A stretch of DNA of 53,284 bases from Methanosphaera sp. (GTDB lineage: Archaea; Methanobacteriota; Methanobacteria; Methanobacteriales; Methanobacteriaceae): the NCBI RefSeq assembly GCF_016282985.1, contig NZ_JAEELZ010000144.1:1-53284 (forward strand), read 5' to 3'. A program made the translations under genes and the position numbers. Below, one piece after another: positions 17,020-33,755 of the stretch (the first letter of the stretch is position 1; every line of letters starts with the position of its first letter). The notes below the pieces were generated by a model. It was given only the letters and a program-made list of their open reading frames with translations. It was not told the DNA's origin and made no database searches.

Positions 17020-18798
17020 ATGTTACAAACGTTACCACTAATATTGCTTTTTGTTTTGTCTTTACTTTTTTTTAATAACAAGAATATTAGCTTGGATAAA
17101 AAAGTGAGTGTTGTAATTCCCGCTTTTAATGAAGAAAAATCAATTATCCATGTTATTAATACAGTAAAAAAAGTAAAATCTATTACAGAGATTATAGTTG
17201 TTGATGATGGCTCAACTGATAATACATATAATCTGGTATCTGATTGTGATGATGTAATATTACTAAAACATTTAACCAATAAAGGTAAAGGTTCTGCAAT
17301 GAAAACAGGACTAAAAAAGGTTACAAATGATATAGTATTATTTTTGGATGCTGATCTTTCTGAAATTAATCAATATCAAATAGAATCCATTATTCAACCT
17401 ATTCTGGATGGCGAAGCAGATATTACTAAAACAAAATTTAAACGTGAAGCAGGTAGAGTAACGGAATTAACGGCAAAACCTTTACTTCAGTTTTTCTTCC
17501 CTGAATTAAATTTTGATCAACCGTTAAGTGGACAATTCGCTTCCATTAAAAGTTTTTTAGATCATATTGATTTAGAACATGATTATGGTGTAGATATTGG
17601 TATAGTATTGGATGCTGATGCCAGGGGTATGAGAATTCAGGAAGTTGATATAGGAAACATTGTTCATGAAATGTCTACATTGAAAGAACTTAATATCATG
17701 GCTAATGAAGTTGTTAGAACAATTGTTGATCGTGCAATTAGTTATGGTAGATTAACGATGGTTGATGATTTGGGTAATGCAATACGAATGGAAATAATGG
17801 GATTGTCCATAATTACTTTTGGAATATTTGGATTATTTTTCATAAAATATATGGGTCCTCTTGTATCTGCTATAACCATATTAATAGGTTTGGTTATTTC
17901 GATTTATTATCTATATAAAATAATCAAAATGTCGGTGAAGGTTTATAATCAAACTAAAATTCCAACTAAACAAATTATCAAATCGTTTATTCACATGCAT
18001 TTTCCAGTGGTAATATCCATAATAATTATATTGGCAATCGTGGCTTCATTACTGGGTTCAGTTTCTATTTCATCCAATGAAATTTCCTTAGAACCTACAA
18101 CAAAAAATCTAGTAATTTCCACAGTCTCTCAACCAAGAAGTACCGTGGATGTCAGAGGACCTTATACAGTTGAAAGTGCATTGGAAAATGAACCTCATCT
18201 GTTAAGATTGTCGAATTCGGCATTGAATACATTGAATGCTCAGTACGGTGATTATATTTATATAGGTGATTCACGTTATCAATTAGAACAGGTAGTTAAT
18301 AACGAGAATGATATAATACGTATTCCGGAGTCTGCCAGAACAGAGTTGAATCTTAAATTAGATCAAGTTATCCGTGATAGTGACTTAAGAAGTGTATTTG
18401 AAAAATGTTATATTACTCATAATATTCATAAAGATGAGATTGCCAATATAGAAGCTGACGGAAATGAGACTAAACTTGGGGTTATTAATAAAACAACAGT
18501 AAATATTTTTTCACAAATATTAACAGATTCACACCCATCCAAAAATTTAAATGTATACGTTAACGATACAAAAGTGGCACAATCTGTGGGTATTATTGAA
18601 AACGGCACTTATATAATTGCTATTAACAATGAAACAGTGAAAAATTTAAGGTTAAATGATTCAAGTATAGGATTAGTATACAATTCAAGTTATCAATCCA
18701 CAAGTGTGAAAGTTATATTGGAAGAAACAGGTGTTAACTCAACAAATTTATTTGTTAGGGATCCATCTTTAAATCACTTCCTGAATATAAATTTCTAA
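17020..18798 (+). CDS. Membrane-bound GT2 glycosyltransferase with outer C-terminal domain
   Basis: A 592-residue protein. After an N-terminal hydrophobic segment (about 3-20) comes a family 2 glycosyltransferase domain (about 28-240) with V-S-V-V-I-P-A-F-N-E-E, V-V-D-D-G-S-T-D and the D-A-D metal site (F-L-D-A-D-L). Three hydrophobic segments at about 265-350 follow. The last 230 residues are Asn/Ser-rich and should lie outside; two stretches resemble a double-psi beta-barrel or AbrB-like pattern (L-R-L-S-N-S-A-L-N-T-L-N, I-R-I-P-E-S-A-R-T-E-L-N-L). It probably transfers sugars to a lipid or surface polymer; substrate unknown. Confidence 0.78.
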   Translation: MLQTLPLILLFVLSLLFFNNKNISLDKKVSVVIPAFNEEKSIIHVINTVKKVKSITEIIVVDDGSTDNTYNLVSDCDDVILLKHLTNKGKGSAMKTGLKKVTNDIVLFLDADLSEINQYQIESIIQPILDGEADITKTKFKREAGRVTELTAKPLLQFFFPELNFDQPLSGQFASIKSFLDHIDLEHDYGVDIGIVLDADARGMRIQEVDIGNIVHEMSTLKELNIMANEVVRTIVDRAISYGRLTMVDDLGNAIRMEIMGLSIITFGIFGLFFIKYMGPLVSAITILIGLVISIYYLYKIIKMSVKVYNQTKIPTKQIIKSFIHMHFPVVISIIIILAIVASLLGSVSISSNEISLEPTTKNLVISTVSQPRSTVDVRGPYTVESALENEPHLLRLSNSALNTLNAQYGDYIYIGDSRYQLEQVVNNENDIIRIPESARTELNLKLDQVIRDSDLRSVFEKCYITHNIHKDEIANIEADGNETKLGVINKTTVNIFSQILTDSHPSKNLNVYVNDTKVAQSVGIIENGTYIIAINNETVKNLRLNDSSIGLVYNSSYQSTSVKVILEETGVNSTNLFVRDPSLNHFLNINF

Positions 18799-19028
18799 AC
18801 ATTTTTTATTTTTTTTAATTTTTTTTAACATTTTATTATACAATTTACATTATATTCTGCTTTTTTTATAATATTTTCATATTTCATACAAAACATTTAA
18901 ATACTATGCAATATATAATATTGATTGTAACATGAAAAGTATTAAACAATATTCATAAAAATATATACCTCTCTGAAAAAGTTTTAATAAATACTATCAT
19001 GTTATAATTAACTGAATATTAATGAATA

Positions 19029-20150
19029 ATGTTCAGTGTGGAGGAAACAATATTTAAAATGAATTATCATCCATTAACCCATAAATGCAGAATTTATCCA
19101 AAAGATAAACAGATTAAACAGTTTGAAATGACATTGGACGCTTGTCAATTCTTATACAACGAACTATTAAATCAATACAAAGTCGATTACAAAAATAATA
19201 ATATACCCTACAATTTAATTAATTATTTTAAAATGGTTATTGGACAGGCAAAAAACAATTATAGTTCAATATCTAAGCTTAATGATTCAACTATAGATGA
19301 TGTATTGAATAACGTAATTCGTGCAATAAGACTTAGTAAAGATCCCTACAAATTAAAAGCTAAAGATGAAAAGATAAGAGTTCATTCATTTCTACTGAAT
19401 AATACAAAAAACATAGAGTTAATAGGAAATATTTTACATTTAGATAAATATGGAAAATTCAAGTTACACTATGGAAAAACTATTGAATACAACAGAGTAA
19501 TATCATATAAAGTTTTATATCAGAATAAGAAATGGTTCATCTTAATCACTATCAGGTCTGACAACATAAAACCCTTTCCAAAAACGGGTAAAAAAATCGG
19601 TATAGATCTAGGGTTAAAAAATTTAGTAGTCTTGTCAAATGGACAAAAATATGACCCTCCAAACATTTTATATTCTAATAAAAAGCTTAGCAAATTTAAT
19701 CGAAAGTTATCATCAAAATCTAAAGGTAGTCGAAAATATGAAGACATAATTTCAAAACAAAATTCAGAACAGTTTCATAGAAAAAACATAATAAATGATT
19801 ATTTCCATAAACTCAGTACAAAAATTGTCAAGGAAAATGATGTAATCGCAATGGAAAGTTTAGATATCCAGGATATGCTAAAGGACAAGCGTTACAGTAA
19901 AAACATATTCCAAGCAAACTGGCATAAACTAGTGTATATGATAAAATACAAATGTGAACTCTATGGTAAAATATTTATTCAAGTAAATACGAGATTTCCT
20001 TCAACGAAACTCTGTAGTAAATGTGGATATAAATACGATGATATCACTATTGATGTTAGAACATGGGAATGCCCAAAATGTGGAGAAATACATGATAGGG
20101 ATGTTAATGCAGCAAAAAATATATTACGAAAAGCATTGTTAAAAAATTAA
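19029..20150 (+). CDS. tnpB: TnpB (IS605 OrfB family) RNA-guided nuclease
   Basis: TnpB family proteins use a guide RNA from their own 3' region to cut DNA. The 373-residue protein looks intact. Numbered from the ATG at 19029, the RuvC triad is D193 (G-I-D-L-G-L-K-N), E276 (A-M-E-S-L-D) and D358 (H-D-R-D-V-N-A-A), and the zinc finger is C329, C332, C348, C351. The N-terminal R-I-Y-P motif is present. A later ATG at 19059 (363 residues) is also plausible; GGAGG at 19040-19044 is about 14 bases before it. Confidence 0.93.
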   Translation: MFSVEETIFKMNYHPLTHKCRIYPKDKQIKQFEMTLDACQFLYNELLNQYKVDYKNNNIPYNLINYFKMVIGQAKNNYSSISKLNDSTIDDVLNNVIRAIRLSKDPYKLKAKDEKIRVHSFLLNNTKNIELIGNILHLDKYGKFKLHYGKTIEYNRVISYKVLYQNKKWFILITIRSDNIKPFPKTGKKIGIDLGLKNLVVLSNGQKYDPPNILYSNKKLSKFNRKLSSKSKGSRKYEDIISKQNSEQFHRKNIINDYFHKLSTKIVKENDVIAMESLDIQDMLKDKRYSKNIFQANWHKLVYMIKYKCELYGKIFIQVNTRFPSTKLCSKCGYKYDDITIDVRTWECPKCGEIHDRDVNAAKNILRKALLKN

Positions 20151-20189
20151 TTAAAAATCGTATTTATAACATTTATTATTAAAACAAAT

Positions 20190-20330
20190 GAACCTGGGGA
20201 ACCTGGGGGATAGCTTTGTCGAAAGGCATAGAATCTTGCAAAAGAAGTTCAAGATCTCGCGGGTCAGGGGGAGAGTTCTCCATAACCTATGGGACATGGG
20301 GGCTAGCTTTGTTAATAGCCCTGGATATTA
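20190..20330 (+). ncRNA. Candidate TnpB guide (omega/reRNA) scaffold
   Basis: Directly after tnpB the sequence becomes strikingly G-rich, against an AT-rich background. It contains a 16-base direct repeat (20204-20219 and 20297-20312, 15 matches) around TAGCTTTGT, and a hairpin GGGCTA (20300-20305)/TAGCCC (20316-20321). A reading frame across 20216-20428 has no recognisable protein features. Position and structure match the guide-RNA region known for TnpB elements. Exact ends and guide are not determined. Confidence 0.55.
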
Positions 20331-20425
20331 ACATAGAAAATAGAAATATTAGTCCATTACGCTCTATCTTTATAGAGATGTTTTTTCATAAATTTTTTTC
20401 AAGAAAAATAATTTATAATAAAATC

Positions 20426-20473
20426 TAGACGTATATTGCAAGTGTAAAAATTTGCAAATACACTAGATTTTTT
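20426..20473 (+). repeat. Dispersed 22-nt repeat, copy 2, within a terminator-like inverted repeat
   Basis: 20426-20447 matches 7421-7442 at 21 of 22 bases. The copy is embedded in an imperfect hairpin: GTGTA (20442-20446) faces TACAC, with TCTAG/CTAGA flanks, followed by seven T ending near 20473. It lies between the TnpB element and the 3' end of the convergent UbiD-family gene. It may be an element end, a terminator shared by the two sites, or a small repeat family. Confidence 0.6.
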
Positions 20474-20482
20474 TAACTATTT

Positions 20483-21766
20483 TTAATCATCAAGAGTAAA
20501 ACTTACCCTTTCATAATCATCAATATTATGGAAAGATTTTGTAGCATCCACACCAACCTTGGTGGTAGTACCATCAATTTCAGCAACAGGATCTAAAGAA
20601 GAACCTCTGGCTTTAGGAATAATGAAAATATCATCATCACCTTTTACACGAGTAGCAACAGCATACTCAACATCAACAGGATCAAAAATATTAATATCCT
20701 CATCAACAATGACACAATGTTTCAAAGAAGGATGCGCAGATAAAGCAGCCATCATAACATTCTTGGCATCACCTTCGGTTTGTTTTTTAATAGATACTAC
20801 AGCATGTAACCAACAACAACCTCCTTCCGTCAAGACAACATTTTGGACAGTAGGCAAAGTATTTTTTACGCTGTTATAAATACGAGGTTCCTGAGGTAAA
20901 CCCTGTAACAGTTTATGCTCATTACCTGCAGGAAGGATAGCATGATAATACGGATTATCCTTATAATGCATTCTGGTTAAGGAAATAACCGGTTCATCCC
21001 TAATCTTATCATAAGTATCAGTCAAATCAACAAACGGACCTTCACTTTTTCTTTTATTAGGTAAAATCTTACCTTCAAGTAATATTTCACATTCGGGAGC
21101 TTCAATATCCACAGTTTCACATTTAACTAAAGTCAAATCACCATCTTTGAAAGTATTAGCAACCTCCAATTCATTTTCACTTATGGATATGCTTGTGGTA
21201 CTTGCAAGTAAAGTGGAAGGACTTAAACCGATAGCAATTGCAACCTCCAGTTCCTGATTCAACTCTTCAGCCCTCTTATAATAAGTATATAAATGTCTAG
21301 GAACAATCCTAATACCTAATTCATCATCAGAATGAACTAACATTCTATGAATGGAAGCATTAGTTAAACCGGTATCCGGATCTTTAGCAATAACAATACC
21401 TGCTGTAATGTATTTGCCCTTATCCTTTGGATAATGCTTTAAAATAGGGAGTTTACTTAAATCAGCATATTCATTATTAGGATAGACTTCATCAAAATTT
21501 TTAATATTTTCAATGCTGGTAGGATTGTTGGTAGCATTAATAATATTTTCAGTAATCTTATCCACACTGGTACCTATTGACTTAGCAATTTTGTCTCGGG
21601 TATTGCAGATACCTGAAATAATATTCATTTCAGAATCTTTAACATTAGTAAAAATCAAAGTATCATGAGGATGCTTTTTTAAAATTGAAGTAATTTCATA
21701 TTCAGTAGATACTTCCTCAGTGATTTCAATAATATCATCATCAATTTCCTCAATTAAACGGGACAT
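20483..21766 (-). CDS. UbiD-family decarboxylase (possible anhydromevalonate phosphate decarboxylase)
   Basis: A 427-residue UbiD-family protein, a prenyl-FMN-dependent decarboxylase. Recognisable parts are [19 protein letters not shown] near residue 150, [11 protein letters not shown] near 230 (catalytic Glu region) and the C-terminal metal-site segments. In archaea one UbiD homologue makes isopentenyl phosphate precursors in the modified mevalonate pathway, so that role is plausible, but other substrates are possible. ATG at 21766 is chosen because AAAGGTGAA lies just upstream and a GTG nine bases earlier is inside that site. purE is 12 bases upstream. Confidence 0.8.
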
Positions 21767-21777
21767 AATATTCACCT

Positions 21778-33612: not shown

Positions 33613-33755
<143 letters not shown>

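Follow-up and report, generated by a model that had tools for sequence, protein, structure and literature searches.

The tnpB locus and its RNA region

We analyzed a 53,284-nucleotide (nt) contig of the methane-producing gut archaeon Methanosphaera sp. (NZ_JAEELZ010000144.1, assembly GCF_016282985.1; the whole stretch is called the window below). It carries a tnpB gene that is followed by two tandem RNA modules of the omegaRNA type; TnpB is a nuclease of transposon origin related to Cas12 of CRISPR systems. The window was compared with other genomes of the genus (G numbers; G000 is the window's own genome). The gene and the RNA region comprise the following features:

19059–20150, plus strand: TnpB with an intact zinc finger and an intact RuvC triad (D183/E266/D348)
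20189–20251, plus strand: omegaRNA-type module 1 with hairpins P1, P2 and P3 and the tail AGTTCA; 77.8 bits with covariance model R1 (training member)
20252–20268, plus strand: guide-like spacer that follows module 1, AGATCTCGCGGGTCAGG; G019 has the same first 13 nt, small self-hairpin possible
20269–20281, plus strand: small hairpin between the modules, GGGAGAGTTCTCC; in G019 another sequence, still a hairpin
20282–20356, plus strand: omegaRNA-type module 2 with a long P2 and the tail AGTCCA; 58.4 bits with R1 (outside training)
20357–20386, plus strand: terminal hairpin CTCTAT..ATAGAG with a T-run, no 16-nt guide; also present at this position in G019 and two times in G007

The analysis confirmed tnpB as a real, intact gene. 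Its open reading frame from the first ATG spans 19029–20150 on the plus strand (373 amino acids), whereas the start kept in relatives is 19059 and gives a TnpB of 363 amino acids; D183, E266 and D348 counted from the conserved start correspond to D193, E276 and D358 from the first ATG. A sequence-only reading of the window had stated that the RuvC triad and all four zinc-finger cysteines are retained, and the three acidic residues as well as C319, C322, C338 and C341 are indeed invariant in all six aligned sequences. The protein scores above the cut-offs of Pfam OrfB_IS605, Cas12f1-like_TNB and HTH_OrfB and of NCBIfam guided_TnpB (217 bits, cut-off 100), and misses the stricter NCBIfam model IS200_TnpB (239.8, cut-off 425). 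The top PDB match of its predicted structure (predicted local distance difference test, pLDDT, 78; predicted template-modelling score, pTM, 0.55) is TnpB 8h1j (E 5e-20), and family, solved-structure and fold searches concordantly point to TnpB, ISDra2 TnpB being the nearest natural solved relative. In the named collection the only close relative is locus L110 of Methanosphaera sp. rholeuAM6.

Behind the gene the GC content rises to 43% in 150-base windows, compared with about 20–30% around it, and the region holds no protein gene apart from one mechanical open reading frame of 70 amino acids that overlaps it; on both points the earlier reading was correct. The tandem modules have a period of 93 nt, and a 42-nt repeat (74% identical) occurs with the same spacing at 20191 and 20284. 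The 16-base direct repeat reported earlier is present but is just a part of this longer repeat, and the inverted repeat GGGCTA/TAGCCC is likewise present but not shared by the nearest relative, where GCTTTGTTAAT/ATTAACATAG is the conserved helix. Rfam gave no credible match in the RNA region. The terminal hairpin is probably a terminator or a 3' cap; its interpretation as a terminal guide was rejected, because other arrays carry different hairpins at this place.

Modules in related genomes

The same locus holds two modules in G019, six in G007 and five in G014, with a period of 88–96 nt after TnpB and larger gaps in G007. Each module consists of three hairpins followed by a tail like AGTTCA, a motif and fold common to the omegaRNAs of mobile IS605-type elements of the genus (e.g., locus L019). 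The earlier proposal of an omega/reRNA was therefore right in kind, but what is present is not the single omegaRNA of a transposon, there being two modules in the window and a separate array elsewhere in the genome.

Covariance model R1 was built from eight short modules and recovers the others. Across 25 modules 89% of the cells pair and 12 of the 15 pairs, distributed over three helices, show double (compensatory) changes, a pairing that none of 500 shuffled controls reached and that slid controls approached with at most 63%; the alignment was fitted to the covariance model, so these counts lean towards it, although the margin is large. In a candidate pseudoknot near the guide 73–77% of the cells pair, with at most one pair changed on both sides. 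A conserved structured RNA with a fixed 3' motif lies 3' of tnpB, as is characteristic of an omegaRNA/reRNA.

Only four species, all from this branch of TnpB, were found to carry the module in tandem arrays, and no tandem modules of this kind occur at any of 22 family loci (L198–L219; L212 was flagged for other repeats). Repeated RNA-like units of another type (..GGGAATTTAAGCTTGTG.. and ..CCGAATTTATGCTTGTG..) stand 3' of TnpB at L220 (G013:C93) and L223 (G018:C40), both running into contig ends, and omegaRNA may have been tandemly duplicated more than once in Methanosphaera. The fifth module of G007 (L090 7253–7348) is a canonical mobile-type omegaRNA with flanks of its own, probably the remnant of a mobile element.

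Arrays in trans

Far from TnpB, the covariance model matched two modules in G000 (contig C53), three in G019 (C25), three in G007 (C92), and one in G015. The trans arrays stand without a TnpB, and in G000, G019 and G007 they lie behind a tRNA-Ser gene, which in G019 comes after the genes of EF-1A and ribosomal S10. They face the aRF1 gene in G019 and G007, while the far side is rearranged in G000; in G009, G010 and G004 the site is empty. Each trans array has a TATA-like promoter, the complete ones finish in a hairpin, and the module period is 104–115 nt. In the checked genomes with dispersed modules only (e.g., G016 and G008), pairs of model matches less than 150 base pairs apart were not seen. 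G016, which has a single TnpB, contains standalone omegaRNA-type modules just upstream of unrelated reading frames (C1:341346 and 770173; L269 and L273).

Synteny and inheritance of the locus

The surroundings of the gene are as follows:

17020–18798, plus strand: glycosyltransferase family 2 gene (Pfam PF00535), conserved upstream neighbour of tnpB
18895–19008, plus strand: promoter-like TATA box of tnpB (ATTTAAATAC) and the 5' leader, which contains a long hairpin with arms at about 18925–18943 and 18990–19008
20424–20475, minus strand: conserved ubiD 3' element (CTAGACGTATATTGCAAGTG..), outside the TnpB locus
20483–21775, minus strand: UbiD family decarboxylase, convergent downstream neighbour of tnpB

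In six of seven clade genomes (G019, G007, G014, G002, G003, and G006) the same glycosyltransferase gene directly precedes tnpB, and in the seventh, G016, a TnpB of 39% identity adjoins ubiD of the same neighbourhood. Relatives with 83, 61 and 50% TnpB identity have both flanking genes, and even in G002 and G003 (about 41%) and G006 (34%), where the gene order is otherwise altered, TnpB is still found right behind the glycosyltransferase gene. In the protein tree these TnpBs group in a single clade (support 0.997) that holds Methanosphaera only and is separate from the remaining archaeal and bacterial TnpBs of the analysis, and its inner branching, (G014,(G007,(G000,G019))), is identical to that of the glycosyltransferase tree. 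The ratio of nonsynonymous to synonymous substitutions (dN/dS) of tnpB is 0.16–0.19 (about 0.17), indicating purifying selection. TnpB is single copy in G000, G019 and G014, save for a distant fragment in G000 (L002, G000:C37:8060–8746; 26%, near a contig end).

The sequence-only reading had noted that no TnpA accompanies the gene, and none was found among the neighbouring genes tested, no genome-wide TnpA search having been made; these neighbours serve metabolism, translation or regulation, encode surface proteins, or match nothing in Pfam. With one intact copy, a neighbourhood shared by seven genomes and no TnpA among the tested neighbours, the features of a mobile IS605 element are missing: the locus is fixed and vertically inherited and does not behave as a mobile element. 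The "element ends" and "flanking target motif" sought by the earlier reading are therefore the wrong frame. That reading had also named an element end upstream of 20190 as a result that would refute it; the comparison does not do so, since in species lacking TnpB at this place homology resumes only near 20424, in the ubiD 3' element. This element is found in G019, G007 and G014 and partially in the TnpB-less G009, G010 and G015.

The leader is conserved in G019, G007 and G014, which form the same long hairpin from different sequence. The TnpB-less G015 still has sequence similar to the promoter and leader of tnpB (z 6.3 in the comparison with G014 and 2.8 with G007), suggesting that TnpB was lost there; the likeness in G010, also TnpB-less, is not significant. 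The leader hairpin (window 18923–19008) apparently also forms in G015, where the leader is partly retained. Elsewhere in the window, Rfam identified a tRNA of 143 bases at 33613–33755 that was not reported by ARAGORN, probably an intron-containing tRNA gene.

Spacers and target searches

Non-terminal modules are followed by about 12–17 nt and then mostly by a small hairpin whose sequence changes while its pairing is kept, a pattern that the spacers of G014 fit least. The spacer length fits the guide of about 16 nt reported for ISDra2 TnpB (PMC8612924). Trans spacers are largely unstructured. One of them is identical at 24 of 24 positions between G000 and G019, with 69% identity in the adjoining hairpin and 64% in nearby intergenic DNA, and is similar in G007; a second, AGAGTTGATACC, has 12 nt common to G019 and G015. 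AGAGTTGATACC has no second exact chromosomal site in G019 or G015, the trans spacer GACTTGAGATTAGTAC has no further site in G000 or G019 when up to 2 mismatches are allowed, and for GATCTCGCGGGT no exact chromosomal target was found. Within one trans spacer (L263 7560–7900, L262 8094–8330), 11 nt, GGACTTGAGAT, also occur in the anticodon arm of the neighbouring tRNA-Ser(TGA) gene. As general guide targets tRNA genes were rejected, this 11-nt match being the only one and other spacers matching at about the level of shuffled sequence.

Discussion

We propose that Methanosphaera has retained TnpB as an immobile host locus in which one nuclease is served by several fixed guides encoded in cis and in trans, a reading to which we assign a probability of roughly 0.6. 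A single transcript would hold TnpB and the tandem array of omegaRNA-type scaffolds, and the further array or arrays in trans would be transcribed from promoters of their own. TnpB, by an RNA-processing activity as in other TnpBs, or a host RNase might then cut the arrays into single RNAs of one scaffold plus one spacer, which would be loaded onto TnpB, and each spacer could direct the nuclease to DNA beside a transposon-associated motif (TAM), so that one nuclease would operate with several fixed guides. Because different species share the guides and the tested ones occur nowhere else on the chromosome, their targets are more likely non-self DNA (a virus, a plasmid or another mobile element) than host genes.

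Several observations weigh against this proposal. The folding energy of the RNA region is no better than that of shuffled sequence (z -0.5), and neither is the single-sequence folding of the modules in the window; because folding energy gives no signal, the evidence for RNA structure is comparative. The last module of each array is without a spacer of guide length, and in the window the spacer after module 1 can form a hairpin of its own, so that it may be structural rather than a guide. Phage records yielded no spacer target, and in viral contigs one 16-mer had two exact matches (two contigs with near-identical context) and a degenerate 16-mer had 45, which is about the level of chance. Finally, the trans module of G015 (genome 72% complete) persists although the tnpB site is empty.

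The main rival is self-regulation, in which the modules are control elements, tandem decoy omegaRNAs that TnpB binds and cuts in its own mRNA, while the array and the trans RNAs titrate or regulate TnpB. The terminal modules, which lack a spacer of guide length, the foldable spacer of module 1 and the long conserved leader hairpin on the tnpB mRNA would all suit such a role, and other TnpBs cut their own mRNA with feedback from that mRNA (PMC10278001). A pure decoy, however, would have no need of trans spacers that are largely unstructured and, in G000 and G019, remain the same next to a hairpin that varies, and G015, with an empty tnpB site, still has its trans module; we regard this explanation as unlikely. 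The conservation of guides between species in an immobile locus could also be reconciled with regulation of host genes by short imperfect guides, as in TldR, and the 11 nt common to one spacer and the adjacent tRNA-Ser might be taken as an example. Yet a TnpB with an intact RuvC triad would cut any chromosomal site that matches well, the tested trans spacers have no other site in the genomes searched, and the remaining spacers match tRNA no more than by chance, which makes such regulation improbable. Similarly doubtful is a chance duplication of the omegaRNA in an otherwise ordinary copy or remnant of an IS605-type TnpB: protein family and RNA fold are those of IS200/IS605 TnpB and the genus does hold canonical mobile-type copies, but fixed synteny within the genus, a single copy under purifying selection with no TnpA next to it, the tandem units of four species set against none at the 22 loci L198–L219, and arrays free of TnpB are difficult to explain in this way. 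The single omegaRNA of a transposon is ruled out by the tandem modules in four species and the trans arrays.

If TnpB does serve several fixed guides, the system might represent an array-based RNA-guided immunity free of CRISPR, in which a domesticated TnpB works with complete omegaRNA-guide units in cis and trans and with fixed guides kept over long periods, an independent route to a multi-guide host system; we offer this only tentatively and at less than even odds. How a transposon nuclease becomes a multi-guide host system is a central question in CRISPR origins, and here one guide at a transposon end would have given way to several host-encoded guides, apparently with no part played by CRISPR repeats. 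The locus is inherited vertically, and its presence, loss and array growth can be traced across about 20 species. The arrangement also suggests compact nucleases with naturally tandem guides. Its components are known, and the combination of tandem and trans arrays is apparently undescribed: tandem or trans omegaRNA arrays for TnpB were not found in the literature searched, which did not include several key TnpB surveys, and novelty is therefore not certain.

Comparison with known systems

The halobacterial sotRNA/omegaRNA (RF02656, RF02657) is likewise an archaeal TnpB-linked RNA (PMC12558985), but occurs as single RNAs overlapping tnpB, and neither family matches the RNA of the window even at E 1. 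TIGR-Tas also places a tandem guide-RNA array beside an effector without adaptation genes (PMC12045711), yet its effectors contain a Nop domain and its RNAs are box C/D-like and 36 nt long, so that protein and RNA are both unrelated. CRISPR arrays or adaptation genes were not found in the stretches examined or among the neighbours tested, no genome-wide search having been made. Type V CRISPR systems with Cas12f or Cas12u, and the TranC intermediates, resemble the locus in having one RuvC nuclease, a related protein, with several array-encoded guides. The units in the window differ from those of type V CRISPR in that they are whole, diverged omegaRNA scaffolds of about 60–80 nt (74% identical over 42 nt) rather than short identical repeats.

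TldR is, like the TnpB proposed here, a TnpB derivative that is no longer a transposon gene and is RNA-guided (PMC13418256); its RuvC domain is dead, however, whereas the triad of the window TnpB is intact. The IS200/IS605 TnpBs (ISDra2, PDB 8h1j/8exa) share the family, the RuvC triad, the zinc finger and the position of the RNA 3' of the gene, and the mobile omegaRNAs of the genus itself share the three-hairpin scaffold with its GTTCA end. The usual omegaRNA is single, and its guide lies in the DNA beyond the transposon (PMC10278001, PMC8612924). In contrast to the ISDra2 type, the Methanosphaera locus is fixed and has several tandem scaffolds with the spacers encoded between them, as well as arrays in trans.
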